A DNA stretch of 64,000 nt, taken from positions 1 to 64,000 of IMG/VR virus record IMGVR_UViG_3300024514_000354. One strand, given 5' to 3'. Position 1 is the first letter of the stretch; each line of letters starts with the position of its first letter. Both the position numbers and the translations under genes were made by a program. This DNA comes from a virus. The notes under the pieces were generated by a model. That model did not search any database and was not told where the DNA came from. It saw only the letters and a program-made list of their open reading frames with translations. Shown in pieces: positions 3,159 to 47,000 of the stretch.

Positions 3159-3539
3159 ATGCCACTTTATACATACGAGAACCCCGAAACAGGAGAGGTC
3201 GTAGACATCCTTCAGACAATGAACGAGGAGCACTCATATACCGACCAAAACGGGCTGAAGTGGAAAAGGGTATACCAGATACCCAATGCCTCCATAGACT
3301 CGCAAATAGACCCGAATAGCAGTACCGCGTTTATCGATGCCACAAGAAACAAGAAAGGGACTTATGGCGACCTGATAGACAAGAGCAGGGAATTGAGCGA
3401 AAAACGCGCTAAAACATACGGTGGCTCTGACCCAATAAAAGAAAAGTTTTTTAAGGACTATTCCGCCAACCGCAAAGGCGCAGTCCACCCAGATCAAAAA
3501 AAGACCTACGAGTCTAAGCGGGTCAAAGTAGAGTATTGA
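3159..3539 (+). CDS. Small protein with FmdB-like start, function unknown
   Basis: This 126-residue hydrophilic protein opens MPLYTYENPETGEVVDILQTM, which resembles the first beta hairpin of FmdB-family zinc ribbons (MPxYxYxC...). The zinc-binding cysteines are absent, and there is no cysteine anywhere. The second half is Lys/Arg-rich and probably helical. It follows the terminator at 3119-3145, so it needs its own promoter; an AT-rich stretch lies just before the ATG. It converges on the minus-strand glycan cluster, with a 17-nt overlap of the two 3' ends. No function can be assigned. Confidence 0.7.
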   Translation: MPLYTYENPETGEVVDILQTMNEEHSYTDQNGLKWKRVYQIPNASIDSQIDPNSSTAFIDATRNKKGTYGDLIDKSRELSEKRAKTYGGSDPIKEKFFKDYSANRKGAVHPDQKKTYESKRVKVEY

Positions 3540-4689
3540 TCTTTTCGATAACCATTTCTGGGGTTATCTTGGACGAGCACTCAAAGTTCTTATTTCTGGG
3601 GCACCACATCCAGTTAGCCTTATCAAATTTAAGGCTAGGATCGTTCCAGCACCCATTGCACACAGAGTCGTTAATGATTCGGTAAGGGGTCTCAAACTCC
3701 GCAAAAGCTTTGCTGAATCCGCTAATTAATACGGTTGGCTTATTCAGCGCCCAAGCTAACCAAGATAGTCCCGATCCTAAACCAATAAAAAATTCAGAAT
3801 TATAGATTTGCGACATTCTGACCTCTAGTGGAATGTTTCCAGTCTTATCTATAGCCCCCTTGGGGATAAAGTTCATCTTTTGTTTTTCATTACCAAAAAC
3901 AGGGAAGCGGTCAATGCACCAAGCATCGTATCCCTTGCTATTTAAATAATTTATTAGTGTCTCCCAACCTTTCTCATTGTTCCAGTACTTGCACTGAGCA
4001 GTGCTTTGAGTAGCGATAGTAACGTATTTTTTATGCTTCTTGGTTGAATTTTGAAACGTTAAAATCGGCTTTTCTTCTTTAAAATCTAGCCCAAGAACTG
4101 AGCTAGCTACTTGTTGCAGAGGAATTGTGCGTGGATCGATTGGGTTTCTGCTCTGCCAGTTCTCCAATGGATAACCTATCTTATAAATTGCATAGTAGTC
4201 CTCTTTATAGCTAAAATCTGAAATAAAATTGATATTCTCGTATGATAGATTTAGGATTTCCGCCAACTCTTTATTCAGCGCCAAAACATCTAACTTGCAA
4301 CCGTGCTTTGTTTGAAAGCGGTCAATCTGGCCAACATAAGCCAAAATATCGCCAAGACTCTGCGAGTCTATAACTACCAATACTTTCTTATCCTTAAGAT
4401 TTAAAACTTGATCAAATATTGCTTGACCGCCAGACTCAACAAGAATTCGCCACTCAATGTAATACGGGATCGTTGATTTAGACCACATATTATTCTTAAT
4501 TTCAGAAGAGTAGGTAATTTCGCCAGTCTTATTATTAATAAACTTTACTGTATAGCTCTGATCAATTGGGCCGTTTATGGATACTTTGGCTGAATCAAGA
4601 AACGACACTTCAATTGTATTTTGTGCCCTCCTTGGTTCCTTAAATGATTTTTCTGTTTTTGAATAAATATTAAGCAGAGTATCTCTCAT
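3523..4689 (-). CDS. Autotransporter-heptosyltransferase-like glycosyltransferase (GT9-like)
   Basis: This 388-residue protein has an N-terminal beta-rich domain (about 25-90, including TVKFINNKTGEITYSSEI and an NNMWS motif). A GT-B core follows, with SQSLGDILAYVGQ, IATQSTAQCKYWNN and FIGLGSGLSWLAWALNKPTVLIS. The C-terminus holds four cysteines at 344, 347, 363 and 371 (CxxC-x15-C-x7-C). This architecture is that of bacterial autotransporter heptosyltransferases (TibC/Aah type), which O-glycosylate Ser of adhesins and bind iron through a Cys cluster. It is last in the minus-strand glycan operon, overlapping the gene before it by 4 nt. The likely acceptor is a phage fibre, which is inference. 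Confidence 0.8.
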   Translation of the reverse strand: MRDTLLNIYSKTEKSFKEPRRAQNTIEVSFLDSAKVSINGPIDQSYTVKFINNKTGEITYSSEIKNNMWSKSTIPYYIEWRILVESGGQAIFDQVLNLKDKKVLVVIDSQSLGDILAYVGQIDRFQTKHGCKLDVLALNKELAEILNLSYENINFISDFSYKEDYYAIYKIGYPLENWQSRNPIDPRTIPLQQVASSVLGLDFKEEKPILTFQNSTKKHKKYVTIATQSTAQCKYWNNEKGWETLINYLNSKGYDAWCIDRFPVFGNEKQKMNFIPKGAIDKTGNIPLEVRMSQIYNSEFFIGLGSGLSWLAWALNKPTVLISGFSKAFAEFETPYRIINDSVCNGCWNDPSLKFDKANWMWCPRNKNFECSSKITPEMVIEKINTLL

Positions 4690-5612
4690 ATAGCTTTGAT
4701 CTTCTTGAGATTTTCCTTAAAAGCGCCCTCTTTTAAATAGCTAACTCCAGCAAATTTATCATACATATTTTTATAGGCTGGAAGATTATAAATCAAACAC
4801 GGCAGTTTCCAAGACAAAGCCTCTCTGATAACAAGCGGCGACGTTTCTCTTTTAGAGGTAAAAACCATCAAGTCAGCAGCCTGATAGAACTTATCAACGT
4901 CATTTCTTTCACCCCAGATCAAACAGTTATTTGGGAGATTCTTTAAGATCGGCTCCCAATAATCCTTGAAGTTAACGGCCATATTACCTACAAAGTGAAA
5001 TTGGATCTTCTCGCCCTCAAGCGCGCGCGCGTACTCGATCAACTCTTTTTGGTTTTTACCCTGAGTAAAAAGTCCAATATTTAATACGTGCTTTACATCG
5101 TCTTTGAATCCCAGTTCTTTTTTAAATGCTTTATTAGGGTCTTTAAAATCTATTGGATATTCCAGTATCTCATATCCAACACCCATCTTGCCATACATTT
5201 CAGCCTGCATTTCAGAAACAAAAATAAACTTATCTGGCAGAAAGATTTTGCTTTGAGGCTTGTAATAAATTCCATGACTGGTTTCAAATATCAAATACCG
5301 CCTGTCTTTACCGTATATTTTATACAGCATTTCGTGAGATACAAAGGTTTCTGGAAACTCCTCAAAATGAATTGCATCTGGCCCGATTTGCGTTATTAAA
5401 TCTAATAGCCTTTCTTTTGGTTGACTACCTAAAGAAATAAACTTGTCTTTTAAAAGATCTAGAACCTGATTTCTCTGAACCGTGTATTTGTCTGATACAA
5501 AATTATATTCAATACACCAGATCTCATTTTCTTTTAAAGATTGAATCTTTTTTAAAAGATATTGAGGCAATCCCCCAGTTGACAAGTGTGGGGTTATGTA
5601 AAGTATTTTCAT
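4686..5612 (-). CDS. Glycosyltransferase, GT4-like
   Basis: This 308-residue GT-B enzyme starts MKILYITPHLSTGGLPQYLL, the typical GT4 opening with a Gly-Gly acceptor loop. The C-terminal half has VLNIGLFTQGKNQKELIEYA and GERNDVDKFYQAADLMVFTS. A short acidic motif, TSPLVIREALSWKLP, stands in place of the usual E-x7-E. Donor and acceptor are unknown. It overlaps both neighbours by 4 nt (ATGA), the pattern of the whole cluster, so translation is probably coupled. Confidence 0.85.
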   Translation of the reverse strand: MKILYITPHLSTGGLPQYLLKKIQSLKENEIWCIEYNFVSDKYTVQRNQVLDLLKDKFISLGSQPKERLLDLITQIGPDAIHFEEFPETFVSHEMLYKIYGKDRRYLIFETSHGIYYKPQSKIFLPDKFIFVSEMQAEMYGKMGVGYEILEYPIDFKDPNKAFKKELGFKDDVKHVLNIGLFTQGKNQKELIEYARALEGEKIQFHFVGNMAVNFKDYWEPILKNLPNNCLIWGERNDVDKFYQAADLMVFTSKRETSPLVIREALSWKLPCLIYNLPAYKNMYDKFAGVSYLKEGAFKENLKKIKAI

Positions 5613-6436
5613 TTTTTTATAACTTCTTTAACCAAATTTAAAAAAGCTTCTTTTGATATAGATTCTTTAAAATGTTCATAAACTGGATCTAATTGTATAT
5701 TTAGATCAGTAAATGCTATTATATAGTTCCTGATTTTGTTTGTTAAAGATATTGGATACGGAACTCCACTTGGCCTTCCAAAACGATGGACCCATCTTAA
5801 AAATGGAAGGCATAAAGTTTTTTTGCCATTCATCCTGTACTTTTCGTGAATGTAGCCCTCCTCTCCACCAAAGCCTCTGAACTGATCATTAAATCCTAAC
5901 CAAGAATCTTTAGCACAAGAAAATAACCCAAGACCCTGAGCTTGAATTTCAAACGGTTCAGAATCGGGGCTCAGTCCTCTTTTGTCAGTTTCCCAAGTTC
6001 CCCACATATGAGAGCGCCATTTAAGATCAAAATGAGTTGAAATATGTTTATAATCATCATACAGCAGCGGTCCCTGTAAAAGGTTTCCTTCATCTTTTTT
6101 TGAGTCGTAGAAATCTATTAATTTTTTAATAGCGCCAGACTCTATTAATACGTGACAGTCTACGCACAAAACATAAGGCGTCCTTGCAAATGAAAATATT
6201 TTATTTCTTATGGATGTGCTAGAATATTCTGGCTGCGATATATATTGAATTGGCTCACTAACTGCATTGCACAGCTTTTTTACTGAATCAGAATGCTTAC
6301 CCGATGGATTATTATCAACAATAATAAATTCTATGTGATCTAAAACTTCTTTGTGAAAAAGCCGGATTGACTGAATGGTAAAGTAAACACCATCAAAATC
6401 ATCATAAGTTGCCATCCCAACTGTTAAACTTCTCAT
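5609..6436 (-). CDS. Glycosyltransferase family 2 (GT-A fold)
   Basis: This 275-residue protein begins LTVGMATYDDFDGVYFTIQSI and continues to EFIIVDNNPSG, the nucleotide-binding first half of GT2 enzymes. PYVLCVDCHVLIESGAI (about 87-103) supplies the acidic metal-binding motif in DxD position (here D-C-H). FRGFGGEEGYIHEKYRMNG (about 187-205) looks like the acceptor-side GGE(E)/D motif seen in GalNAc-transferase-like GT2 proteins. It overlaps each neighbour by 4 nt. The sugar is not predictable. Confidence 0.85.
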   Translation of the reverse strand: MRSLTVGMATYDDFDGVYFTIQSIRLFHKEVLDHIEFIIVDNNPSGKHSDSVKKLCNAVSEPIQYISQPEYSSTSIRNKIFSFARTPYVLCVDCHVLIESGAIKKLIDFYDSKKDEGNLLQGPLLYDDYKHISTHFDLKWRSHMWGTWETDKRGLSPDSEPFEIQAQGLGLFSCAKDSWLGFNDQFRGFGGEEGYIHEKYRMNGKKTLCLPFLRWVHRFGRPSGVPYPISLTNKIRNYIIAFTDLNIQLDPVYEHFKESISKEAFLNLVKEVIKK

Positions 6437-7311
6437 AAGAAAAAGTTTTGATACTTAGAGGACTCTCCCCAATATTCATTTTTGTCAGCGTACTCTTTTC
6501 TGTAAGTCTGGAAATGTGATGTAAAATTTTTTCCATGATTCACATGCATAGATGGGTTTTTATTAAAAATCTTCTTTATATTACCAGCTGGCTCAAGCGT
6601 TTCAAACTGTCCATAAAGATATTTTATCAATAGCTTTTCAAAGTAAGTTTTTGCAAAATCAGCTTTCATTGTCATTTGATGAAGCGGCAAAGCGGCACTA
6701 TTGCTTTTCTGAAAACCCATTTTTGATATTCCTATATAGTTTTGATTGCACACATAACTCTCGTCAAAATCCTCAAATGCAAAATATTCCTCTGGATACA
6801 AAACATCATGCTCCAAAAAACTTATGTATTTAAAATTATTATAATTATTCAAAACAGATAGGCACTGCAAAATCTGAGAAACTATATTTGGATGATGATT
6901 ATTTTTAAATATTGAATCTATTTCAAAAAAATATTTTTGACAATTAGCTACTTGCGGACAAACTATAACTTCTGCATTATTCGATGTCTCTACTGATTTT
7001 TGTATAGAAGCTAGACTTGAATCTAGTATTTCTTCTTTTATTTTATTGTTTGTGTAAAAAATTCCCAATCTTGTCTTTTTTAGAATACTTTTATCTAAAA
7101 AATTTAAATGACATATACTGTTTTCGTTAAAAACAAAGACTTCACCACCTTCAGTTTCTATGCGTAATCTCTTTAAAACATTAACCGCAGGATCTTTTCC
7201 GAAGTATGCATTAGACACTTTAATACATTTTTTATGCTGTATATCTGATAGGATTCTATCTTTAACATCTATGTATTTTTCATCTATCCCATAATATGCC
7301 GATTTTATCAT
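6433..7311 (-). CDS. Two-domain putative glycosyltransferase with DUF3395-like N-terminus
   Basis: In this 292-residue protein, residues 1-75 (SAYYGIDEKYIDVKDRI, then AYFGKDPAVNVLKRLRIE) resemble the DUF3395-type domain, in which a protein repeats Y-G-x-x-x-x-x-D-V-T...D-P-x-x-G-x-x-K-x-L. Residues from about 90 include VIVCPQV and KYISFLEHDVLYPEEYF; EHD in this setting is used as a metal-binding motif in some GT-A-like enzymes. The call rests on these fragments and on the position between a GT2 and a GT8 gene with 4-nt overlaps on both sides. The DNA is very AT-rich. Confidence 0.55.
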   Translation of the reverse strand: MIKSAYYGIDEKYIDVKDRILSDIQHKKCIKVSNAYFGKDPAVNVLKRLRIETEGGEVFVFNENSICHLNFLDKSILKKTRLGIFYTNNKIKEEILDSSLASIQKSVETSNNAEVIVCPQVANCQKYFFEIDSIFKNNHHPNIVSQILQCLSVLNNYNNFKYISFLEHDVLYPEEYFAFEDFDESYVCNQNYIGISKMGFQKSNSAALPLHQMTMKADFAKTYFEKLLIKYLYGQFETLEPAGNIKKIFNKNPSMHVNHGKNFTSHFQTYRKEYADKNEYWGESSKYQNFFL

Positions 7312-8087
7312 CTTATGTATTTGGCAGCAGAATTACTTACTCTATCAAAACTAGACTTTAAATCAAAAAATCCATCTGGAGAACCAAGAATATAATTATT
7401 TTTTACCTCAAATTCTAAAGCCTCTTTGTAATAATCATGCCACAGGTTCTCAACTTGCTTATTGCCGTGCTCTTTATACTGCATTACTTCTGGAAACGGT
7501 CTCCAAGGCTGAGTGTTCATCTTTGTATAGTGTACTAGTCTTGTAGTTTCTTGATCAAAATCCTTGCCATCTAAACAGTTATATATTTTATCTAGCGTAC
7601 CTATTGATGAATTTTTTTGTATTAAGAGTCTGTAATGCTTTTGATTTTTGCCAGATGGCTTCATTTTTTGTATTTTTGGCCAAAAATCAGCTTTGAATTT
7701 TGAACAGTTTATCAGCATGACATCTGTTCTTTCTTCTTTTATTGCCAGTGCGGCATTATCTCTAACATCAAGATTCCACATCTGCTCTATATCCTTTAAG
7801 ACAATTTGATCAACGTCCAAATAAATCGCCTTGCCGCTATAGTCGCAAAGCTCTGGAATTGCCCATCTAAAAACTGAAAAATTAGTTTTCCAGCCTACTC
7901 CAGAGTTTTGAGTTCTATCATCTCTTCCTTTGTTCCAGTTATCCCATATCGAATCCTTGTATTTATCTGACATCCAATATATATCTACGCTTCCTTTGCA
8001 GTTTTTTATTATGCTGTAATGTAAAGCTTTTTCTGCTTTTTCATTACCGATTTCACTTCCCACAAATATGCGAATAGTGTCACTCAT
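7308..8087 (-). CDS. Glycosyltransferase family 8-like
   Basis: This 259-residue GT-A protein has an IRIFVGSEIGNEKAEKALHYS opening, VGWKTNFSVFRWAIPEL and then GKAIYLDVDQIVLKDIEQMW (about 86-105), where DVD is the metal/nucleotide-sugar-binding DxD motif. VHYTKMNTQPWRPF (about 191-204) matches the HYTxxxKPW end of GT8 enzymes. It likely transfers a hexose or related sugar. It overlaps both neighbours by 4 nt within the glycan cluster. Confidence 0.85.
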   Translation of the reverse strand: MSDTIRIFVGSEIGNEKAEKALHYSIIKNCKGSVDIYWMSDKYKDSIWDNWNKGRDDRTQNSGVGWKTNFSVFRWAIPELCDYSGKAIYLDVDQIVLKDIEQMWNLDVRDNAALAIKEERTDVMLINCSKFKADFWPKIQKMKPSGKNQKHYRLLIQKNSSIGTLDKIYNCLDGKDFDQETTRLVHYTKMNTQPWRPFPEVMQYKEHGNKQVENLWHDYYKEALEFEVKNNYILGSPDGFFDLKSSFDRVSNSAAKYIR

Positions 8088-8866
8088 AGAATTTTTATTA
8101 AAACCACCTTATTCCTTCTGCCTTGTGTTTGACCTATAATTTTAAAATCTACATTATGCTTGTCAACAAACTCTCTAAATGCAACTGATTCACAACCAGA
8201 GTAAATTATTGATTTTATATTTTTATTCACTCTTTGTTTGATCGGGATTCTTCTTGCGTGAACGAATTCGTCAAACATCAAATATGGCTTATTTTTCTTT
8301 ATTATGCCTGCAATATTTTCTAATACAAATGCGGTACTGCTATATATGTCGCAATCGATATGAATAAGGCTTATTTTAGAAGATTCAACTTCAGTTAAAT
8401 TTTTTTTAAAAGGCTCCACCGTCTCATCAAACCATCCATCTTTGATAATAACGTTATCATTAAAAAAAATTTTATCTCTTGTGCTGTAAGTATTAAATAT
8501 TCCAGCCCTTCCTTTCAACTTGCCATTTGGCAGTATCCAGTTTTCTGGAAGCCCTTTAAATTTATCAAACCCATAAAATAAACAGTCCTGCCTGAATTTT
8601 GACATGAAATTAATAGACATGCCTCTAAAAACACCAAATTCCAGAATTATTGATTCTTTTGGCAAAAGCTCTAACGCATGAAGCCAAACGTTCATCCTGC
8701 TTTTATTTTTTTTAACCATTGATAAAAGCGGGTATCCATTAATCGATTCCATTTCTTTTATATAGTCAAAATAAATTTTATATGGCGCAAAATTTTCTTC
8801 ATCTTGTCCAAGCATTCTAAAAACTCTGCTTTCTAAAACTTTTTGATTAATTTCTTGGTCAGTCAT
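8084..8866 (-). CDS. TylF-like SAM-dependent methyltransferase
   Basis: This is a 260-residue class I methyltransferase. ESIILEFGVFRGMSINFMS (about 72-90) is motif I, GFDKFKGLPENW (about 99-110) is the acidic loop of the TylF/macrocin O-methyltransferase family, and SLIHIDCDIYSSTAFVLENI followed by YLMFDEF supplies the metal-binding D-x-D and following Asp. These enzymes methylate sugar hydroxyls, so it probably caps or tailors a glycan made by its neighbours. It overlaps the GT8-like gene by 4 nt. Confidence 0.85.
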   Translation of the reverse strand: MTDQEINQKVLESRVFRMLGQDEENFAPYKIYFDYIKEMESINGYPLLSMVKKNKSRMNVWLHALELLPKESIILEFGVFRGMSINFMSKFRQDCLFYGFDKFKGLPENWILPNGKLKGRAGIFNTYSTRDKIFFNDNVIIKDGWFDETVEPFKKNLTEVESSKISLIHIDCDIYSSTAFVLENIAGIIKKNKPYLMFDEFVHARRIPIKQRVNKNIKSIIYSGCESVAFREFVDKHNVDFKIIGQTQGRRNKVVLIKIL

Positions 8867-8868
8867 AA

Positions 8869-9804
8869 TTATTTATATTTTTCTTCTAATATTGAATAAA
8901 AAATACCAATCGCCTCAAGCATTCCCTCTTCTACTGGCTTTTCGTGTTTTATAAATGGCTGCATATCTTTTATCTTATTTTTCCACATAATAATGTTATC
9001 AAATTTAAAAGAGCTTTCTGCCATATAAAATTGATTAGTCTTATTGCAGAGCAAAAGGTCATGACCATAAAAACCTAAACTAAAAAGCTTGCCTACATTA
9101 AAACAAAAATCTTTTAATTTATTTAGATTTGGAAGTATTTTTGTTTCGTAGTAAAAGTTTTGTAATTCGTAATCTTTCGGAGTGTCGCCAGCGTGGACAT
9201 TCGGATTAAGATCTTTAGCGTTTCTAAATCTTAAAAATATATCAGTTATTTCGCCCTCAATGCACATTGCTCTTGGACAAGCGTAATAAACATCTCCTTT
9301 ATAATCAAAACTTGTATCTATAAATTCTGTGTTATAGTCTGCGCTTTTTATGTTCTTGCCCCCATCTAATAAAAATGTTTTTGCATGAGATCCACATCTT
9401 GCATTTGAAAATACTTTACCATTATAATCAAAATTATCTATGAGCCTAGGGCACGCAATACCATTTTGAGTTAAAAATAAATTTGTTTTCATTTTATCCC
9501 CCAGAATTGACCCAAGACTTGACCCATGACACACAAAACAATTGCTATATTCCTTGCAGGCGTGCTCTACATCCACAGCCAGATCAATTTTAAAAGTTCT
9601 TTTTAAGTCGGCGTCCTCACAGTATATAGGAAAAATAAAAATCTTTGAAAATACGCAGGCATATTTTTTTATCAATACTTTAAATTCTTCGACAGTCTTT
9701 ACCTTCTTGGCCTCAAAGTTCTGCGATTTTGTAGAAGAAATTATATCAAGAAATTTTTTTGAAATCTTTCCAGATCCATGACCAACAAAGATGACTAAAT
9801 TCAT
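8869..9804 (-). CDS. ATP-grasp-like protein of the glycan cluster
   Basis: This 311-residue protein's first ~100 residues look like a Rossmann-type lead domain (LVIFVGHGSGKI). GSILGDKMKTNLFLTQNGIACPRLI (about 107-131) resembles the D-K-x-x-x...L-x-x-x-G-I-x-x-P linker that opens ATP-grasp domains. Later strands such as EITDIFLRFRNAKDLNPNVHAG and FSLGFYGHDLLLCNKTNQFYMAE fit the metal/ATP-binding half. If correct, it would ligate a carboxylate to an amine or thiol. The match is by pattern only. Two bases separate it from the methyltransferase gene. Confidence 0.45.
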   Translation of the reverse strand: MNLVIFVGHGSGKISKKFLDIISSTKSQNFEAKKVKTVEEFKVLIKKYACVFSKIFIFPIYCEDADLKRTFKIDLAVDVEHACKEYSNCFVCHGSSLGSILGDKMKTNLFLTQNGIACPRLIDNFDYNGKVFSNARCGSHAKTFLLDGGKNIKSADYNTEFIDTSFDYKGDVYYACPRAMCIEGEITDIFLRFRNAKDLNPNVHAGDTPKDYELQNFYYETKILPNLNKLKDFCFNVGKLFSLGFYGHDLLLCNKTNQFYMAESSFKFDNIIMWKNKIKDMQPFIKHEKPVEEGMLEAIGIFYSILEEKYK

Positions 9805-9805
9805 A

Positions 9806-10867
9806 CTAATAAATTGGATACCTCATATAAATTTCTTTAATTTTATCCCAAACATCATCTTTCTTCACTTGTCTTGTAAACCACCAGTTGCACCATTTGT
9901 TTCTGTTTTGTTCATTTACTGTAACGGCGTCATCAAGAATCGAATCCCAAGACTTTGGCTCTATAAATACCTCTAGTCCAGAAAACCAGCTTCTGCCAGT
10001 AGCTATAACTGGAGCATTTGCTAGAACAAGTTCATTGCTTACACTGCTGCAATTTATGATGTGATATTTTGCATGAGCGATCAATTTTATATTGATCTCT
10101 TTTTCAAATTTTGCATTTGGATTTTTTTTAAGCTGAGATTGCTTGTGTGCAAAAACTGGTGCAGTTTTTACCTGATTCACTGAAAATCTAGACCACGAAT
10201 CCATAGCTGGGCCACCTTTGACTACAGGCGTTAGTCCAGCTTTAATAACTGCATCGCACATTTTATTAACCCAGTCAGTTACTTCCGTTTTTCTGTCAAG
10301 CCCCTCCCTAAGCTCTGGTCTTATCAAATCCATAGAGTATTGTGGCCATATAACAACATACTCTCCAGATTTTAAGTCGTTAACTGGCTTAGAGTTCTTT
10401 TCGTTTTCTAGCTTTTTTAGAAAATCATCCCTGTACTCCTGTATATATTCTGGAGCTAATCCCCAGTCCATATTTCCAGAAATATTTGGCCAATCAAAGA
10501 AAATAGATCCGGTGTTGACTGATCCATATGTATCTACCATATAGCTTTCATAATGGTCAAAATATCCGAAATCATACATTAGCGTCTTTATTCCTATGCT
10601 ATTGCACTTATACACGAACTCTTTCCAATCCTTTTGACTTCCCCATAAAAATCCGTGCTCGTCTCTTTGAATTACTACGTTTATATCTATTTCTTTTTTT
10701 AATATCTTTTCAAATAAAAGCTCCAAATTCATATGCTCCCAAAAGGAGTCTAAAGTAGATACCATATGAGCCTTGATGTCTGGCTGTTTTCTAGCATCGA
10801 GAACTACCTGTCTAGTTTTTAATTCGTAAAGCTCTCTTGCATTCCAGAATAGTGCTTTTATTTTCAT
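9806..10867 (-). CDS. Putative GT-B glycosyltransferase, capsule-synthesis-like
   Basis: This 353-residue protein has GEYVVIWPQYSMDLIRPEL (about 187-205), then TPVVKGGPAMDSWSRFS. Near the C-terminus it has KYHIINCSSVSNELVLANAPVIATGRSWF, a layout seen in capsule polysaccharide (KpsC/KpsS-type) and related GT-B enzymes, where a Ser-Ser-rich loop precedes a conserved late strand. No short motif is decisive. It is the first enzyme gene after the mucin-like fibre (3 nt away) and is coupled to the rest of the glycan cluster, which favours a sugar-transfer role. Confidence 0.5.
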   Translation of the reverse strand: MKIKALFWNARELYELKTRQVVLDARKQPDIKAHMVSTLDSFWEHMNLELLFEKILKKEIDINVVIQRDEHGFLWGSQKDWKEFVYKCNSIGIKTLMYDFGYFDHYESYMVDTYGSVNTGSIFFDWPNISGNMDWGLAPEYIQEYRDDFLKKLENEKNSKPVNDLKSGEYVVIWPQYSMDLIRPELREGLDRKTEVTDWVNKMCDAVIKAGLTPVVKGGPAMDSWSRFSVNQVKTAPVFAHKQSQLKKNPNAKFEKEINIKLIAHAKYHIINCSSVSNELVLANAPVIATGRSWFSGLEVFIEPKSWDSILDDAVTVNEQNRNKWCNWWFTRQVKKDDVWDKIKEIYMRYPIY

Positions 10868-10870
10868 AAA

Positions 10871-13087
10871 TTAACCGCTAGCGCTTGGACTACCACTTCC
10901 GCTTTCGCTGGTACTGCTACTGCTGCTAGGACTACTACTTTCGCTAGAGCTAGAGCTAGAACTTGAGCTAGAACTTGAGCTTGAGCTTGAGCTACTACTA
11001 GAACTAGAGCTTGGACTGTCACTTGGGCTGCTACTCGGACTATTGCTTGCGCTTGGACTTGCGCTCGGGCTATTGCTATAGCTATAGCTCGGACTTGCGC
11101 TTGGGCTTGCGCTCAAGCTTGGGCTTGGACTTGGACTTGCGCTCGGGCTTGGGCTCGGGCTTGGACTTGGGCTTGGACTTGGGCTTGGACTTGGGCTCGG
11201 GCTTGGAGCAGCTGTTGTGGTAGTTGTAGTAGTTGTGGTGGTTGTAGTAGTTGGCTCCTCGGTAGTGGTAGTTGTAGTAGTTGTAGTGGTTGTCGTAGTA
11301 GTTGTGGTTGTAGTTGTGGTTGTAGTTACGGCTATAACATTTAAATAAACTTCTCTAGTTCCTTCTGTATTTGCCGTAATTCCAGCACCATTATCTACAT
11401 AGCACGCATAGTAAGTCTCATCGCTTTCAAGAATTGTATTAAATTGAAGCTGCGCTGTTGATTGACCACTTATATGAGCCCCACTGAACGTGACATAGGT
11501 AGATCCGTTCCATTTCTTCCAGAGATAATTAACCCCAGGTCTTCCAGAAGCAGTAATTATTAATTTTACTACGTCACCAACATCGACATCAAAAGACTGT
11601 TCGTTGTACGTCAGTGCAGTTTGGGCACCATCTTCATCGACGACAACCTCACTAATACTAACATAATTGACAGTAAGTGTTGAAAGTGAACTATTTACAG
11701 TTCCCAACGAGGTCTTTGTACTAGAAACAGCGCAAAAGAAATCGCTATCGTGTTCTGATAAAGCTACATTATGGGTATATGTGTTTGAGCTTGAGCTTTG
11801 AACCAAGACATCAGTGTAGGAGCTAGGTCTAGAAGTGTAGTCTCTTCTATAGAAATCATAATTAAGAGTTCCTGCACCAGCCGCTGTTACGACATAAGAT
11901 AGAGAAGCGCCCTCGTTTACCGTTGGATTAGCAACGCCATTGCCCAAGAAGCTGGAGATTGAGATGGCGGTCAGGTTTACGGTTAGAGTGCAAGTAACAG
12001 ATGTGTCTGGAGTTGTGCCAGAAGCAGAAGACGATACTACACAGTAATACTGCGAACCATTACTGTCTTCATCAACAGTATCTGCAAAAGATGGATTATT
12101 TGCCCCGATTGGAGAGCCGTCTTTGTACCATTGATAGCTGAGTGTTGCTGAACCTCCAGCAACAACTGTAAATACCGCCAATACAGTTTCCTGACCACTG
12201 AGAACCGTAACTGTCTTGGTAGAAGGTAGTTCTGTAGTAATCTTTGGGTTAATATACAGAATCGCGGCATTTGAGTTTACGCTGGCGGCACTATTGCTAA
12301 CTACGCAACGGTACTGGTAATCTGCTCTTGCTAATTGACAGTTAAATGTCAGCGTAGCCGATGTTATTCCGCTTATATTAGTCTCTTGTCCAGCGCTAAG
12401 ATCTGACCAAGAACTCCCGCCGTTTGTTGACCTCTGCCATTTGTAAGTTAATCCTGTTGGCTTGCCTTCTGTAGCGGTTACTGAATAAGTCACCGCATCT
12501 GCGTCGTTGTAAACCGTAGACGTTGGATGAACGGTGATTGTCGGCGGATAATTTACAGTCAGGGTTGCGGAATTACTCTCTATCGAACCAGAGTCGTCAG
12601 TGACTACACATCTGTAAGAGCCTTCATCAGTTGGGTAGTCTGCATTTAAAATTTGCAGCGTTGTGGATGTTGCGCCTGCTATTTCTCCAGACGAGTTTGA
12701 TAGATTATCCCAATTACTGGTGCCAGTATTATACTTTTGCCACTGATAAAGCAGAGTTCCACTACCTGTAGCTGCCACTGTGAATGTCGCTGTATTAGTT
12801 TCTAATACAGTTTGGTTAGTTGGTTGGGTTGTTATCTCTAGCGTAGTCCTTTTGCGAAAAATATTTTTTAAATCTGTGCCATTGACTTTAAATCCTGTAT
12901 TAAAGGATATTCTATCGCCTTCACTTGTTGATGCGTGGAATATTGTATTTAAATCTGATGATCCAACCTTAAAATTAGTCGTCGATGCCGCTGTTCCAGC
13001 CGTTCCAAGATCCTGAAAAAGTCCGCTTAAATCGTATGATTGCCCACTAGCAGAGATATAGACTCTAAACTTTGTTTCAATGGGCAT
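10871..13087 (-). CDS. Ig-domain fibre with mucin-like Thr/Ser/Pro tail
   Basis: This is a 738-residue presumed surface fibre. Residues 1-85 carry two copies of a short unit ending D-L-x-x-I-F. Five Ig-like domains follow (about 88-183, 184-280, 281-372, 373-478, 479-585), each with a Y-x-W/F core strand and a late Y-x-C strand followed by TLTVN-like linkers. From residue 588 the chain is 22 Thr, EEP, 13 Thr, AAP, a long Ser-Pro repeat and a Ser-rich end. Ig domains in phage virions usually bind cell-surface sugars. The tail looks like an O-glycosylation substrate. The glycan operon begins 3 nt downstream. Confidence 0.8.
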   Translation of the reverse strand: MPIETKFRVYISASGQSYDLSGLFQDLGTAGTAASTTNFKVGSSDLNTIFHASTSEGDRISFNTGFKVNGTDLKNIFRKRTTLEITTQPTNQTVLETNTATFTVAATGSGTLLYQWQKYNTGTSNWDNLSNSSGEIAGATSTTLQILNADYPTDEGSYRCVVTDDSGSIESNSATLTVNYPPTITVHPTSTVYNDADAVTYSVTATEGKPTGLTYKWQRSTNGGSSWSDLSAGQETNISGITSATLTFNCQLARADYQYRCVVSNSAASVNSNAAILYINPKITTELPSTKTVTVLSGQETVLAVFTVVAGGSATLSYQWYKDGSPIGANNPSFADTVDEDSNGSQYYCVVSSSASGTTPDTSVTCTLTVNLTAISISSFLGNGVANPTVNEGASLSYVVTAAGAGTLNYDFYRRDYTSRPSSYTDVLVQSSSSNTYTHNVALSEHDSDFFCAVSSTKTSLGTVNSSLSTLTVNYVSISEVVVDEDGAQTALTYNEQSFDVDVGDVVKLIITASGRPGVNYLWKKWNGSTYVTFSGAHISGQSTAQLQFNTILESDETYYACYVDNGAGITANTEGTREVYLNVIAVTTTTTTTTTTTTTTTTTTTTTTEEPTTTTTTTTTTTTTAAPSPSPSPSPSPSPSPSPSPSPSASPSPSPSLSASPSASPSYSYSNSPSASPSASNSPSSSPSDSPSSSSSSSSSSSSSSSSSSSSSSSESSSPSSSSSTSESGSGSPSASG
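10877..11326 (-). repeat. Low-complexity Thr, Ser-Pro and Ser coding repeats
   Basis: The 3' part of the Ig fibre gene is made of simple codon repeats. Threonine codons fill 11261-11326 and 11213-11251, Ser-Pro codons run to about 11050, and Ser codons with a few Gly/Glu/Pro make up the rest. Synonymous codons are mixed, so the amino-acid pattern rather than the DNA repeat seems to be maintained. Replication slippage could still alter its length. Confidence 0.85.
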
Positions 13088-18900: not shown

Positions 18901-19205
18901 ATAGAATCGAATGGGTTACCAGTCGTACCTGTCGGTATATCCAGTCCAATATACTTATCATTCCAGCCATCATTCAAATAGTATTGAATATTTAAATTAA
19001 CATCCGGCGCAAGCTGAGTCTGCCTTGTAGCAAACGAATCGGAGCCGATTTGTTTCAGCGGAGTTCTTTCAATATTGAAAGAGAAGTCGTAGCCCTGAAT
19101 AAAATCAAGACGACTGATTCCGCTGCCCGTGTTCATCGCCTCCTCAAAAGCGCCAGAGGAACCAACAAACATCATTTGCATTTCATATGAGATTGGTCTG
19201 CCCAT
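15930..19205 (-). CDS. Tail-tube-fold protein fused to 14 RCC1 repeats
   Basis: This is a 1091-residue protein. The first ~395 residues resemble the window's main tail tube protein: both share a GNAYITNY segment followed by x-A-V and a T-V-S-x-x-x-x-G-x-N strand. From about 400 onward there are exactly 14 RCC1-type repeats, each with an I-D-K-x-G-K-x-W-x-W-G core and a following K-T-F-C-K-I strand. RCC1 repeats close into seven-bladed beta propellers, so 14 suggests two propellers. It probably sits in the tail tube or tip and displays propellers outward. It lies downstream of the gpM-like gene, sharing one base with it. Confidence 0.82.
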   Translation of the reverse strand: MGRPISYEMQMMFVGSSGAFEEAMNTGSGISRLDFIQGYDFSFNIERTPLKQIGSDSFATRQTQLAPDVNLNIQYYLNDGWNDKYIGLDIPTGTTGNPFDSILSSTGDRNFYISIAQNDGMDQNLQTGIVNSNILAIGNAYITNYEISVAVNQLATVSCSFVGANANVQDYATSKYLPSVNTLVSGQNAQDANKNFSLNFVNNSRTERYLPKAKEVFNGGCPYSKCKITPDFQSGGGTSPITFGFFDAIANNFQSMQFSVQFERKALYGFGNNHPYIRKIQRPTVATLSLSALIDDFQAENLSKVFHAEGGTQKSMLIEFFNLEDVKKFGLSLQNLTLESYNLGARIGDRVLVETNWSVEVKNGAGADIGMVGSYGPPLLDVTKVNESFAVERLFFQAAASDAGQSFAIDKNGTLWGWGVNTYWSENFRVNTINSLEGQVATPTKIIGANRTFCKVVSTGGGFSAIDKKGKVWSWGPNNYGQIGDGSTTSRTLPTSLYGNKTFCEISGTFDRKVGLDKNGKLWAWGQLSNSPAVCSSTPVAVYQDKTFCKISNASDFIDKNGKAWAWSYPNPTAVGGNKTFSEISSAGNYTLAIDKYGKAWGWGYNGANNIGSGSSIPDFVNSNSPIAVYGNKTFCKIFARDEFNGIGTSFAIDKNGKAWGWGANGYGQLGDNSIINRCTPVAVCGNKIFSNIYIGYTTASWTAADDIPRPFVIGIDNNNTAWSWGSNLAGTLGNGNKHYHCVPILVNSARTFCKIAANAYTSLTLDKNGLAQFSGFTNIYGNKTVCEIGLSLESYYIIDNAGKAWAWGTNDFGQLGDNSITSRATPVQVYGSKTFCKIIGNNATFSGDAFALAIDKYNKAWAWGINTRGQLGNNSITSRRTPVAVCGNKTFCQICAGYDHVLAIDKNGKAWGWGGNYFGAVGDGSTVCRSSPVAVYGNKTFCKIFAMNALSIAIDKDNKLWGWGYDQSVITNSEAILTPKRIIIGSLNNNFCDVALGGSYGGYMFLDTNGKAWAWGYNVCGLLGLNTNAPVLSPRQICGNNSFYKIGVISSEFDGACYAIDKSNRLWGWGQIGIYTNNSNYKTPSRIYNK

Positions 19206-35227: not shown

Positions 35228-35767
35228 TTAGTAGTAAAAGTCTTCTTTTACCACTTCTGGCTTTTTTCTTAAAGCCGCAATTCCTTGACCTTCTGTCAGC
35301 ATCTCAACCAGATCGTAATACTTCAGAGCCATCTGATAATCAGAGCGATTGAAGTCATGGATGAATACCAGCACATCCTGATCAATAATATCCCAAAGAT
35401 ACTTGGCGCAATACTTACGCGCGCGACCATCAATCAGCGCCTTGGTGAACTTTAGCTTCTTGGTTGCAGGCAAATGAATGTAGTCCTTGAACTGTTCGTA
35501 TCTGCAAGGCTTTGGATCTGGAGAGTGAGCGGCTTGATAGATCAGTTCGATATTCTGGATATCGTAAGCATTAACGATCTTTTGGATATTTTTAATCCAG
35601 TCGATGTCGTGCTCGATGGAAATTACCTTCTTCACCAATCCAGAAAAATAAACAGTGCTATTGCCACTACCAAACTCAAGCAACGTGTCATTTTTATTTA
35701 GATACTTTTCAATAAACTTGTACTCATGTTCGTGCATGAGCGGGCGGAAGGAACTAAATTTATTCAT
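35228..35767 (-). CDS. SAM-dependent methyltransferase
   Basis: This is a 179-residue class I methyltransferase. DTLLEFGSGNSTVYFSGLV (about 29-47) is the SAM-binding motif I, VISIEHDIDWI the acidic motif II and VLVFIHDFNRSDY a motif IV-like strand. The substrate is unknown. It is the last gene of the second fibre/modification block, overlapping the glycosyltransferase fusion by 4 nt, so a sugar or protein of that block is the likely target. Confidence 0.8.
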   Translation of the reverse strand: MNKFSSFRPLMHEHEYKFIEKYLNKNDTLLEFGSGNSTVYFSGLVKKVISIEHDIDWIKNIQKIVNAYDIQNIELIYQAAHSPDPKPCRYEQFKDYIHLPATKKLKFTKALIDGRARKYCAKYLWDIIDQDVLVFIHDFNRSDYQMALKYYDLVEMLTEGQGIAALRKKPEVVKEDFYY

Positions 35768-37362
35768 CGCTTGTTATCGTAAATGTCCATAACTTCCTTA
35801 ACTACGGTATCGGCATCTGGGAGATAATCCCAGAGAGTCTTACCCTTGGGGATAAGATCGATAGTATCGTGCTTGAACTCAGTGTGACGGATTTCTAGAC
35901 CATCGAGCAACAGATCTTTACGGAGAGCCTTGGTTTTGTAAGACTGAGTACCGTTTCTATATGGAAGGATGTGATCTTCATGCTTACAGGTTGGGAATGT
36001 CACAATCCAATTATCAAAAGCACCAGCAATATGAAGCGGTGATGAATCATTCGTTACAAGGCATCTAGACAGTGAAATTAAGGCAAATAATTGCCCAAGA
36101 GTGGTCAGATCGCGGAGATCGTAGCCGTCCTGTGGAACTTTGATTGGTAGATAGCCCTGTTTCTCGTCAATGCTCTTGCCAATCAGCACAACTGTAAGCT
36201 TTTCCGACAGTTTATCCACAATAGACTGCCACCACTCAACTGGCAAAGTCTTTGAGGGCCACCAGCGACCAGCGTGAACCACAACAGTAGGCTTTTCAGG
36301 CTTCTTGTCTTTAAATAAGTCGATAACATAACTGACATCCTCTGCATCTAGCTTGAGTTGAATCGTCTTGTCAGTGTGTGGGATAGTACGCTTGATCATT
36401 GACATCGAGGCAAAGTCTGTTGGGTGGAACAGAACGTGTGACATCTTGTGTTCTGACTGCTCATCGTCAGGGCAAGTATGCATTGTCAAGATAGCGTCAT
36501 TAATTCCCTTCCATTGATCATAATTAACCACGGGGCAGCTAAGGTGCTCAAAGAGACGAGGGAAGTGCGATACAACAGTGATATTAGCGTCAGGATAAAG
36601 CTTCTGAGTATAGCGGATAGCAGGCTCTGAACATAGCTGGTCGCCCATTCCTGCTGTTACGCTAATAAGGATGTTTCGCTTATACTTGTAGCCCTCCTCC
36701 TTGTCTTTTTCCCATTGAAGGATATCCTTGTAGATAACGCCCATTTGCATATCTTTTGGCGCACCAGCGTAGTGAACGATATACGAGTTTAGGCGCGAGA
36801 TGCCGCAGAACTTATCCAAGATATCCATACGATTAAAGTCGTAGTGGAGGTCAAACATATCAACCTTATCATTTAAAATTCGCAGATTGATGAATGGCTG
36901 ATCAGTTTCTACGAAATCAATGCCTCGCGGAAGTCTGAAGATCTGCTTGTGGATTCGGGAGATAACCATTACGCCCGAATTGTAGAACTTGCCGTTCCAC
37001 TTCTTCAATGGCTCCTTGTAGTACTCCGAGGCTTGTTCCAGATACTCAAACCTTGGCGCATAACGGCCCTCATTGAACATTCCCAGCTTAGTCTCTGGGA
37101 CAACTTCAAACAAGTTGGGGCAATCATCTCTGATTAAAATATCAATATCAAGATAAATGATTCGCTTGTACTGATTTAAGAGTTCGCCAATCAGGAACTT
37201 ATTCCACTTTTGGGTAATGTAGTATTTGTTGAACTCTGTGACGTTTAGAAAATCGGCGCCGATTTTCTCCGCATACTTTTGGATAGAAGGTAGCGTGAGC
37301 TTTGCTACTTCGTTGTAATAATCGCCAATCGAGATGGTTAAAACTAAGTTATCCTTTTTCAT
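35764..37362 (-). CDS. Fused GT8-like and GT9-like (heptosyltransferase-type) glycosyltransferase
   Basis: This fused enzyme has 532 residues from the ATG chosen here. A TTG 39 nt upstream would add 13 residues and deepen the overlap with the preceding gene, so it is less likely. Residues ~1-230 form a GT-A domain with RIIYLDIDILIRDDCPNLFE (DID as DxD) and a later YIVHYAGAPKDM. Residues ~235-530 form a GT9-like GT-B domain: VTAGMGDQLCSEPAIRYTQ, VVVHAGRWWPSKTLPVEWW and RCLVTNDSSPLHIAGAFDNWIV. The two domains could add consecutive sugars to one acceptor. It lies between a sulfotransferase and a methyltransferase gene. Confidence 0.87.
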   Translation of the reverse strand: MKKDNLVLTISIGDYYNEVAKLTLPSIQKYAEKIGADFLNVTEFNKYYITQKWNKFLIGELLNQYKRIIYLDIDILIRDDCPNLFEVVPETKLGMFNEGRYAPRFEYLEQASEYYKEPLKKWNGKFYNSGVMVISRIHKQIFRLPRGIDFVETDQPFINLRILNDKVDMFDLHYDFNRMDILDKFCGISRLNSYIVHYAGAPKDMQMGVIYKDILQWEKDKEEGYKYKRNILISVTAGMGDQLCSEPAIRYTQKLYPDANITVVSHFPRLFEHLSCPVVNYDQWKGINDAILTMHTCPDDEQSEHKMSHVLFHPTDFASMSMIKRTIPHTDKTIQLKLDAEDVSYVIDLFKDKKPEKPTVVVHAGRWWPSKTLPVEWWQSIVDKLSEKLTVVLIGKSIDEKQGYLPIKVPQDGYDLRDLTTLGQLFALISLSRCLVTNDSSPLHIAGAFDNWIVTFPTCKHEDHILPYRNGTQSYKTKALRKDLLLDGLEIRHTEFKHDTIDLIPKGKTLWDYLPDADTVVKEVMDIYDNKR

Positions 37363-38092
37363 TCGTCTCTTTAATATTATAAAGAGACAGCAAATCTTCA
37401 ATCTTCGCGGCTAATTTTTCTGACATAACTTCCTTATGTCCGCCGATCTTTCCTTTGACGGGGCCGAAGTTTGGTAAAGACTTGTCGTGAACATCTGGGA
37501 TCTTATCCGCAATCTTTTTTTCAATCCAGCTTTCAATTCTTTGTTTTTGATGCTGGTAATCTGTAAGCATATCCTCATAATTAACTACAAGCATTTTATC
37601 TTTGTGCTTGAGCCAGCCGCTGGTATGCAAGAACCATCGATGAATATAATTTTCTGGTTCAATAATTATATGTGGATCAGGTGCATAAGGCTGTAGAAAC
37701 TTTCTGCCAATATCATCAGGCTTGGAAAACACCCATTCTTCAAACACTGGAAAATCTTTTTGTTCTGGCTTTGGGATAAATTTATAATAGCTATTTAATA
37801 CATCCTTGATATCGCGCTTAACGTAAATAACCCTATACTTGCTAAATAAAAAATCTAAATAATCCTTCATAAACTCTACTTGGTGATGAGATTTATTAAC
37901 CGAGTCCAAGAAACAGGCATTGCACATAATATCCTTATAAGTTATATGCTTATAGCCTTTTAAATTAAAATCTATATTATTTGGCGTATAACCAACGGTC
38001 AAAAATTCACCTTTTTTTTCGTAGTTTATCGAATTGATAACAAGATGTGTGCCAGAGCGTTCGTGAGTTATAACAAGAACTGGTTTAGTCAT
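37349..38092 (-). CDS. Sulfotransferase (PAPS-dependent)
   Basis: This is a 247-residue protein. The 5'-phosphosulfate loop ITHERSGTHLVINSI (8-22) and the 3'-phosphate segment YVKRDIKDVLNSYYKF (90-105) are both present, with a late GKIGGHKEVMSEKLAAKIE tail typical of the family. It would move sulfate from PAPS to a hydroxyl or amine, most simply on a glycan built by its neighbours. This is unusual for a phage. It lies 3 nt before the RCC1 protein gene's stop region in the same operon. Confidence 0.85.
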   Translation of the reverse strand: MTKPVLVITHERSGTHLVINSINYEKKGEFLTVGYTPNNIDFNLKGYKHITYKDIMCNACFLDSVNKSHHQVEFMKDYLDFLFSKYRVIYVKRDIKDVLNSYYKFIPKPEQKDFPVFEEWVFSKPDDIGRKFLQPYAPDPHIIIEPENYIHRWFLHTSGWLKHKDKMLVVNYEDMLTDYQHQKQRIESWIEKKIADKIPDVHDKSLPNFGPVKGKIGGHKEVMSEKLAAKIEDLLSLYNIKETNEKG

Positions 38093-44030: not shown

Positions 44031-47000
44031 TTAAAACTCCACTTTAAGTTTCTCTACATCAACACGCTCGGCGTAGACTATATAAAAATAATCCAGATCG
44101 GGCGAGTCTGACGATATATAAATAAAGTTGCCTTCAATTTTTTCAACATAAAGGTTTTGCTGATAGCCAAACGGAGTGAGTTGAACAGTGATAGACTGAG
44201 GATCAACCAGCGCGACCCAGTAATCGGGCAGTGAGATCACGCCCCCGCGCCCGCGCCCGCGCACGTACACGCCGTTTTCTGGGCCTTCCAAGCAGGCGTA
44301 CTGCAACTTCATTCCGCTCTTTGTGGGGTGGTCAATAAGGAACGCCTTGGTCTGCGCGGCCATATGGCCGTTGATTGTGGTATTAACGCCGATTGTTACA
44401 AGCGATCCAGTGTCAGTAATAGAAGAATTGCCAACGGCAGTTGAAGAAGTAAATTTAGCAATTGTATTGGTAGTGCCAGAAATAGTTCCAGCGCCACTTG
44501 TGCCACTTGTGCCTGCCGCACCGTTAGCACCACTTGTACCGCTAGTGCCAGTTGTGCCACTGGTACCCGCTGCACCCGCTGCGCCATTAGCGCCGCTTGT
44601 ACCACTTGTTCCTGTAGTTCCGCTAGTTCCGTTAGCACCAGCTGCACCATTAGCTCCACTTGTGCCGCTAGTGCCAGTGGTGCCAGAAGTACCATTTATA
44701 CCGCTAGTGCCATTAGCACCGTTCGCGCCGCTAGTACCACTCGTTCCATTAACACCGCTGGTTCCAGCAGCGCCATTAGCACCGCTTGTACCAGAAGTTC
44801 CATTGACGCCGCTCGTTCCGTTTACACCGCTTGTGCCATTTGCGCCACTGGTACCACTTGTTCCATTTACACCGCTGGTACCGTTAACGCCACTAGTACC
44901 GCTAGCACCACTGCTTCCGCTTGTGCCATTTGTGCCGCTTGTTCCACTTACGCCACTTGTGCCATTTGCGCCACTGGTACCACTAGTGCCCTGTGTTCCG
45001 CCAAGTTCAGCGATAAAGTCTACTTTCCAGCCGATTGTAGCATCGATATAAGTAAATCCTAGAAGAGCAGAGAAATTACAAGTTAAGTCTTCTAACAAGC
45101 TTTCGATTCTCGATCCATTTCTAGCTACAGTTAAATTATTAGTTGGCCAAGTTTCTTTAAAATCATTAATTTCAACATAGTTACCAGCAGATGGAGTAGC
45201 TGGTAGGGTAATCGTAAAAGCGCCAGCAGAAGTGTCTGCAAGAATACGATCACCATTAACTGCGGTGTAATTTGAGGTTTTTACCGTCCAGCCAACAAGT
45301 GGGCTAGTTCCGCTTGTACCGCTAGTACCTGTTGTCCCACTAGTGCCAGCAGCACCATTTGCACCGCTAGTACCAGCTGTACCACTTGTCCCAGCTGCGC
45401 CATTAACGCCACTAGTTCCGTTAACTCCACTTGTACCATTAGCGCCATTTGCGCCGCTAGTACCTGTCGTGCCACTGGTGCCATTTGCACCGCTAGTGCC
45501 ACTTGTACCCGTTGTACCGCTAGTGCCATTGACGCCGCTAGTGCCGTTAGCGCCATTTGCGCCGCTAGTGCCTGCTGTACCGCTAGTGCCAGTAGTACCA
45601 CTGGTTCCGTTAATGCCGCTAGTACCAGTTGTGCCACTTGTTCCATTGACTCCGCTCGTACCATTAACACCACTTGTGCCATTAATTCCACTAGTTCCGG
45701 TAGTACCACTAGTACCAGTAGTTCCGCTAGTCCCATTTGTACCGCTAGTGCCATTGATACCACTGGTACCATTAATGCCACTGCTACCACTAGTTCCTTG
45801 AGTGCCACCGATTTCAGAAATAACATCGATTTTCCAACCAATTGTCGCATCAATATAAGTTAAGCCGATTGTAGCTGAAATATTACATACAAGATCTTCA
45901 AGCAAGCTATCGATTCTAGAACCATTTCTTGCAATTGTCAGATTATTTATCGGCCAAGTTTCTTCTGGATCATTAAATTCTACATAATGACCAGCAGATG
46001 GAGAAGCTGGCAAAGTAATAGTAAATGCTCCAGCTGAAGTGTCAGCGAGAAGGCGATCACCGTTTACCGCTGTATAGCTAGATGTTTTTACCGACCATCC
46101 AACTAGTGGGCTGGTGCCACTAGTGCCACTTGTGCCTGTTGTACCGCTAGTGCCAACAGCGCCGTTTGCTCCGCTGGTACCAGCTGTGCCGCTTGTGCCA
46201 TTAATCCCGCTTGTACCGTTTACACCACTAGTACCGTTGGCGCCATTTGCTCCGCTGGTGCCGCTAGTGCCGGTCGTACCGCTAGTACCATTGACACCGC
46301 TTGTGCCATTAGCACCGTTCGCGCCGCTGGTGCCTGCTGTACCGCTAGTGCCAGTTGTACCGCTGGTGCCGTTAGCGCCATTTGCACCACTAGTACCTGA
46401 TGAGCCGCTAGTACCAGTTGTTCCGCTCGTACCATTAACACCGCTAGTACCATTGGAGCCATTCGTGCCTGAAGAACCAGAAGTGCCAGTTGTACCAGAA
46501 GTACCACTTGATCCAGACGAGCCAGCAGTACCGCTTGTACCAGATGAGCCAGAAGTTCCACCAACAGCCACGTTCCAAGTTGATCCGTCGCTAATTACAG
46601 TAACTGCTTCGTACTGATCTAAAACGTAAGTATTGGCGCCATCAATTTGACCAAGAGAAGTGGCGTCGATTGTTAGAGTTCCAGTGCCTTTATTTTTTAT
46701 CGTATACTGTCTGCCGCTATTAGCCGAGGCGGAAATCAGTGTGACAGTAATTGGCGAAGAGGAATTACCAACGATAACGTCATCAAGAGTTGTGACAACA
46801 TAACCTGTAGTTTTTACATCAACGTTGCGCTCGATAGATTCGGCGTAGAATGTCCTGAAAATGTCCAAGCTGCCAGAAATAAAATGCTGACCAGTGCCAT
46901 TAAGCTCAAGAGTGTTTGTATTAAACCAAACACCAGAAGCCGAATGATAGGACAGCATATCGTTGTCCTGAACACCAATCAGGCGAACGTTGTGCAACTC

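Follow-up and report, generated by a model that had tools for sequence, protein, structure and literature searches.

Phage fibre tails and adjacent glycosyltransferase genes that point to interchangeable fibre sugar coats

The fibre gene and the genes behind it

The window, by which we mean the whole stretch analysed, covers the first 64,000 bases of a virus contig that is 69,737 bases long. It encodes an Ig-domain fibre, which matched PF13927 at 71 bits over four stretches in a profile search, and eight genes that follow it downstream on the same (-) strand (Table 1). The fibre ends in a tail of 151 aa, including 70 Ser, 36 Thr and 24 Pro, which from residue 588 runs as T22-EEP-T13, 10 and then 3 Ser-Pro repeats, S23 and S5. 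Indeed, the features that a sequence-only reading of this DNA had described in the fibre, namely Ig domains, 35 Thr, Ser-Pro repeats and poly-Ser, are all present, with the 35 Thr split over two runs. Since synonymous codons are mixed within the homopolymer runs (ACT, ACA, ACC and ACG for Thr; AGC, TCT, AGT and TCA for Ser), the runs are not the result of triplet expansion. The Ser/Thr density of the tail, 0.875 in 40 aa, was higher than in all 5000 protein shuffles (maximum 0.725). Furthermore, contigs L003 and L302, both from other samples, are identical in sequence over the tail and operon, and L302, an independent contig, extends 11.9 kb into the operon. The tail appears to be of the sugar-attachment type, and we infer that it is glycosylated.

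The eight downstream genes are tightly packed. As the same reading had noted, five junctions share a 4-nt ATGA overlap, confirmed in the sequence at 4686, 5609, 6433, 7308 and 8084, and the remaining three are gaps of 1-3 nt. Linkage of glycosyltransferase genes to structural genes, a criterion for virion glycosylation, is thus seen here as junctions of 1-4 nt behind the fibre gene. The set is co-directional and reaches the proposed nine genes only if the fibre itself is counted. Pfam matches agreed with the labels methyltransferase (of the TylF type), GT8, GT2 and GT4. Two other labels, GT-B for the 353-aa protein and ATP-grasp-like for the 311-aa protein, are unsupported, as neither protein gave a Pfam, NCBIfam or PDB match and both AlphaFold2 models were poor (pLDDT 38 and 36, respectively); the low-confidence model of the 353-aa protein alternates helices and strands. 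The 292-aa orphan was absent from the earlier list of genes.

Table 1. Features of the fibre locus and of the more distant glycan and collagen-like loci in the window
Feature	Position	Strand	Evidence
Ig-domain fibre, 738 aa; body 1-587, tail 588-738	10871..13087	-	PF13927/PF07679 and tail/Hoc-like PHROGs
Low-complexity tail, exchanged segment	10874..11326	-	Codon and composition analysis; DNA homology to L005 ends at 11337
353-aa protein	9806..10867	-	No Pfam/NCBIfam/PDB match; weak PHROG only; 51% homologue in L006
311-aa orphan	8869..9804	-	No credible match; AlphaFold2 pLDDT 36
SAM methyltransferase, TylF/Methyltransf_24 type	8084..8866	-	PF05711 25 bits (cut-off 23); phrog_6608 E 3e-27
GT8 glycosyltransferase	7308..8087	-	PF01501 39.9 bits (cut-off 24.3)
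292-aa orphan	6433..7311	-	No credible match in profile searches
GT2 glycosyltransferase	5609..6436	-	PF00535 38 bits (cut-off 23.3); 50% homologue in L006
GT4 glycosyltransferase, conserved BAHT partner	4686..5612	-	PF00534 56.8 bits
TibC-type protein O-heptosyltransferase (BAHT), 388 aa	3523..4689	-	TIGR04414 348 bits; PDB 4rap
GT8-GT9 fusion, second glycan locus	35764..37401	-	PF01501 and PF01075 above cut-off; 90% homologue in G048
Sulfotransferase, second glycan locus	37349..38092	-	PF00685 46.9 bits; homologue in G048, none in G002
Collagen-like (Gly-Thr-Ser) tail fibre, 1925 aa, candidate second target	44031..49808	-	Collagen-like and tail-fibre matches

A TibC-type O-heptosyltransferase family in phages

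By its sequence, the last gene encodes a member of the BAHT family. Its product scored far above the curated equivalog cut-off of 200 bits for TIGR04414 (autotransporter strand-loop-strand O-heptosyltransferase; Table 1) and aligned with the structure of TibC over residues 29-385 (E 1.5e-70), whereas LPS heptosyltransferases gave 24 bits or less. The earlier label of a heptosyltransferase-like gene was therefore right as to the GT9 fold, and is narrowed from a generic enzyme to the TibC/AAH family. Catalysis by TibC requires D110, K230, R286 and W305, its iron finger requires C339, C342, C358 and C370, and the residue that it modifies is Ser, not Thr (PMC4358343). When the residues were mapped from that paper, D114, T230, K234, R291 and W310 of the window enzyme corresponded to TibC D110, T226, K230, R286 and W305, and C344, C347, C363 and C371 to the four cysteines of the iron finger. 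Among 75 dereplicated phage BAHTs, the four cysteines, D110 and W305 are kept in all 75 and K230 in 74. R286, which contacts the adenine, is kept in only 55 of the 75, the window enzyme among them, and the sugar donor of some phage BAHTs may thus differ. Because TibC modifies Ser, the poly-Thr part of the tail would not be explained by this enzyme.

The phage enzymes share with TibC of ETEC and AAH of DAEC (TIGR04414; PDB 4rap/4rb4) full-length homology, the catalytic Asp, the donor-binding residues, the four iron-binding cysteines and an aligned N-terminal domain region, but they are encoded by phages, have a dedicated GT4 as their partner and fall mostly outside the main bacterial clade. In addition, the strand-loop-strand target repeat of the bacterial system (TIGR04415) was found in none of the 15 phage records tested, whereas 20 repeats were detected beside the BAHT of bacterial L126/G056 as a control. 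What is shared is therefore the enzyme and not the autotransporter system as a whole, and the substrate class of the phage BAHTs is, to judge from these profiles, different from the bacterial target repeat.

The locus was also described as self-contained, which was not borne out: neither a GmhA nor an HldE-N gene was found in the 69.7-kb contig, suggesting that an ADP-heptose donor would be derived from the host. Across 16 records, GmhA gave no match, and HldE-N-like matches were obtained in three phages, the window's record not being one of them.

Until now, BAHTs have been associated with the modification of bacterial adhesins; within the collections covered here, the family is no less frequent in phages than in bacteria. 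When viral contigs were scanned, at least 579 relatives were confirmed, and a genome collection of 84,980 species gave 92 matches. A BAHT is also present in an isolate, Microcystis phage Mel-JY01. In the family tree, most of the bacterial BAHTs fall into a single supported clade of 30 rows, and the phage BAHTs occupy a distinct part, lying mostly outside that clade alongside 15 bacterial or archaeal rows, some of which are possibly viral sequence in metagenome bins. The GT4 homologue accompanies BAHT at 70 of 92 viral loci, as compared with 3 of 79 genome loci, and all three of the latter fall in the phage-rich part of the tree. A literature search on phage BAHTs found no paper.

Exchange of tails and enzymes among related phages

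We compared the locus with those of related phages. The window and contig L005 are alike in the fibre body (92% identity; 76% for L023), the FnIII fibre (78%), GT4 (79%) and BAHT (88%), whereas neither the tails nor the middle genes are related; DNA homology ends at 11337, the body/tail junction, and restarts at 5381, within GT4. The tail of L005 is instead of the (TP)n/(PEPV)n type and is accompanied by genes for an O-fucosyltransferase-family protein (PF10250) and for a 2OG-Fe(II) oxygenase (PF13640), and both enzymes are common to all three of L005, L023 and L025, which have Thr-Pro/Pro-Glu tails. Between L005 and L025, the fibre bodies are only 37% and the BAHTs 51% identical, yet the tails reach 90%, the O-fucosyltransferase-family proteins 96% and the oxygenases 98%. 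The similarity forms a single 3.4-kb block of 89.7% DNA identity, which begins at the body/tail junction and spans the tail, both enzymes and part of GT4. L006, with poly-Ser/Thr stretches, has homologues of the window's 353-aa gene, GT2 and methyltransferase.

The co-occurrence check in related phages suggested by the sequence-only reading thus gave a divided answer: the middle genes change with the tail type, but GT4-BAHT persists beside tail-less fibres. Three tail-less Ig fibres (L182, L187 and L198) are separated from GT4-BAHT by 2-39 nt with no middle genes, and the GTSG fibre of L196 likewise lacks them. That reading would have been contradicted by the operon in relatives lacking Ser/Thr-rich fibres, and this is the situation of the GT4-BAHT part in the three tail-less cases, as judged from the adjacent fibre on incomplete contigs, with the middle genes gone; a more distant target, such as the collagen-like protein, may still exist in these phages. 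The proposal of a virion O-glycosylation unit is accordingly upheld in that one of its genes belongs to a family of which the characterised members modify protein Ser (TIGR04414) and in that tail and middle genes covary, and is not upheld as one operon serving one tail. The match between tail type and middle enzymes gave a Fisher p of 0.018, or 0.10 with the Thr-Pro cassette counted once, the independent cases being few. The tail and the middle enzymes look coupled on these comparisons, and their joint transfer could also be plain linkage, as the tail lies between the fibre body and the enzymes.

We consider it probable that these phages encode a two-layer virion glycosylation, consisting of a conserved GT4-BAHT core and an exchangeable cassette of tail and enzymes. 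In the core, BAHT would attach heptose, or a similar ADP-activated sugar supplied by the host, to Ser residues in a fibre protein of the virion; this sugar would then be extended or capped by GT4. The cassette would comprise the low-complexity, hydroxyl-rich tail of the Ig fibre and the enzymes encoded between tail and core; in the window, the 353-aa and 311-aa proteins, the methyltransferase, GT8, the orphan and GT2 may together build a methylated oligosaccharide on the tail. By exchanging tail and enzymes as a block, phages of the lineage would alter the sugar coat of the fibre, with a putative benefit for adsorption, shielding or solubility. Two orphans without assigned chemistry among the middle genes of the window count against the two-layer explanation, as does the lack of middle genes at the L196 GTSG fibre. 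For the broader view, that phages hold a large undescribed TibC-type clade with a dedicated GT4 and that "mucin cassettes" of a tail with its own enzymes are swapped as a unit in the evolution of the virion coat, we regard the case for and against as evenly balanced.

Candidate targets and competing explanations

Since BAHT-GT4 persists beside the tail-less Ig fibres and, in L197, beside a collagen without Ser/Thr, the tail is not a necessary substrate of this pair. The tail is thus unlikely to be the substrate of GT4-BAHT, or at least its sole substrate, and the target is probably another virion protein, for example the collagen-like fibre. It is possible, though unlikely, that the whole gene set acts on this collagen-like Gly-Thr-Ser fibre and not on the Ig fibre. 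The second glycan locus, with the GT8-GT9 fusion and the sulfotransferase, is some 6 kb away from this fibre, and collagen-like ORFs co-occur with BAHT both in T4-like phages and in the comparison of two relatives from the window's own lineage: G048 has BAHT, GT4, GT8-GT9, sulfotransferase and collagen fibre, and the BAHT-negative G002 (127 kb) has no match to any of the five. In T4-like phages, the region upstream of the sheath gene holds a collagen-like or Ser/Thr-rich ORF at 10 of 11 BAHT-positive loci and at none of 11 BAHT-negative ones; in 50 whole contigs, PF01391 was found in 15 of 25 with BAHT and 1 of 25 without. These co-occurrences also count in favour of the two-layer explanation. 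After correction for phylogeny, the association in T4-like phages comes down to between 3 (well supported) and 6 independent contrasts, none opposite and too few for significance, and is thus suggestive only. Some BAHT-positive relatives show no collagen, their contigs stopping short of that region; for the same reason an automatic reading of G011 as BAHT without a Ser/Thr-rich fibre does not extend to its whole genome. Moreover, action on the collagen-like fibre leaves the covariation of the middle genes with the Ig-fibre tail unexplained. A literature search on phage collagen glycosylation found no paper under the terms used. When Ser/Thr-rich ORFs were sorted by their distance from BAHT, their density rose only weakly, at 2-6 kb, and we do not take this rise as proof.

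Slightly less likely again is that the tail is an unglycosylated disordered spacer, moving with the middle genes as neighbours in a hypervariable host-recognition island while the enzymes act elsewhere. Host-recognition islands of phages are swapped wholesale and frequently hold Fe(II)-dependent oxygenases (PMC3909814), the TP/PEPV tails lack Ser, and BAHT also accompanies tail-less fibres. A spacer, however, predicts neither the loss of all middle genes in tail-less fibres nor tail-type-specific enzymes, nor an O-fucosyltransferase-family gene beside Thr-rich tails. The metaviromic islands of marine phages described in the same paper share with our loci a hypervariable host-recognition region, swapped fibre C-termini and Fe(II)-oxygenase genes, but the words "glycosyl" and "collagen" are absent from it and a coupling of tail and enzyme is not proposed.

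It is improbable that the glycosyltransferases remodel the host surface (LPS or capsule) during infection, for instance in serotype conversion or superinfection exclusion, with the tail unrelated. Such a role is known for glycosyltransferases of temperate phages, according to work cited in PMC12619734, and the GT4, GT2, GT8 and GT9 folds also make surface glycans; against it stand the match of BAHT to a protein-modifying family rather than to LPS heptosyltransferases, the position of the genes directly behind the fibre, and a gene content that varies with the fibre tail. Glycosylation of phage DNA, for which phage enzymes exist (cited in PMC12619734), is very improbable, because BAHT belongs to a protein-modifying family and the genes adjoin a fibre gene.

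Phage protein glycosylation as such is already known, as in the virions of mycobacteriophages Che8 and Rita (Freeman et al. 2023, cited in PMC11256854 and PMC12619734). As cited there, phage-encoded glycosyltransferases likewise act on virion proteins, with the glycans at the C-termini of capsid and tail-tube subunits; the targets differ from those proposed here, and those accounts, as far as they are cited, name no BAHT and describe no exchange of target tail and enzyme. The new elements are the core of BAHT and GT4 in phages and the joint exchange of a tail with its enzymes, and no paper on either was found in the literature searched. The proposal of a fibre-glycosylation unit has good grounds in the precise enzyme family and the natural cassette swaps, and the swapping of tail and neighbouring enzymes as a block points to interchangeable fibre sugar coats. 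If fibres are the substrates of phage BAHTs, glycosylated virions would be common among aquatic phages and not peculiar to mycobacteriophages, which would bear on adsorption, shielding and the engineering of phages, and the natural swaps of tail and enzymes offer ready-made enzyme-substrate pairs for testing.

Arrangement and occurrence of BAHT domains

BAHT domains of the TibC-type O-heptosyltransferase family occurred as tandem pairs at two of the compared loci (L012:5595-8440 and L219:4945-8135). Phage-type BAHT and GT4 were also detected on two metagenome-bin contigs, L104 and L146 (Flavobacteriales and Winogradskyella), which are possibly viral sequence within the bins. At a further locus (L005:5683-7934), phage genes for an O-fucosyltransferase-family protein and a 2OG-Fe(II) oxygenase were placed between a Thr-Pro-tailed fibre and GT4-BAHT, an arrangement that could point to hydroxyproline or Thr-linked glycans.

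Donor sugar

A protein of Microcystis phage Mel-JY01, annotated as 'methyltransferase FkbM', carries GT4 and BAHT domains (L015:4747-8430); cyanobacterial LPS is not known to contain heptose, which bears on the donor sugar of this BAHT. An HldE-N-like kinase was also found in the BAHT-bearing 735-kb phage L016 (LR756501.1:209213-210175), scoring 306 bits, under the cut-off of 345.

Other genes of the window

The second glycan locus, adjoined by an RCC1-repeat protein gene, had no match in the BAHT-negative relative G002 and was kept in the BAHT-positive relative G048. The further GT4-like gene was common to BAHT-positive and BAHT-negative relatives alike.

Further features of the window
Feature	Positions	Remark
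Further GT4-like glycosyltransferase	1635-2735	opposite strand
RCC1-repeat protein	15930-19205	among structural genes
Second glycan locus	35228-38092	179-aa gene, GT8-GT9 fusion, sulfotransferase
RCC1-repeat protein	38095-40299	among structural genes
Collagen-like Gly-Thr-Ser tail fibre, 1925 aa	44031-49808	tail-fibre PHROG matches
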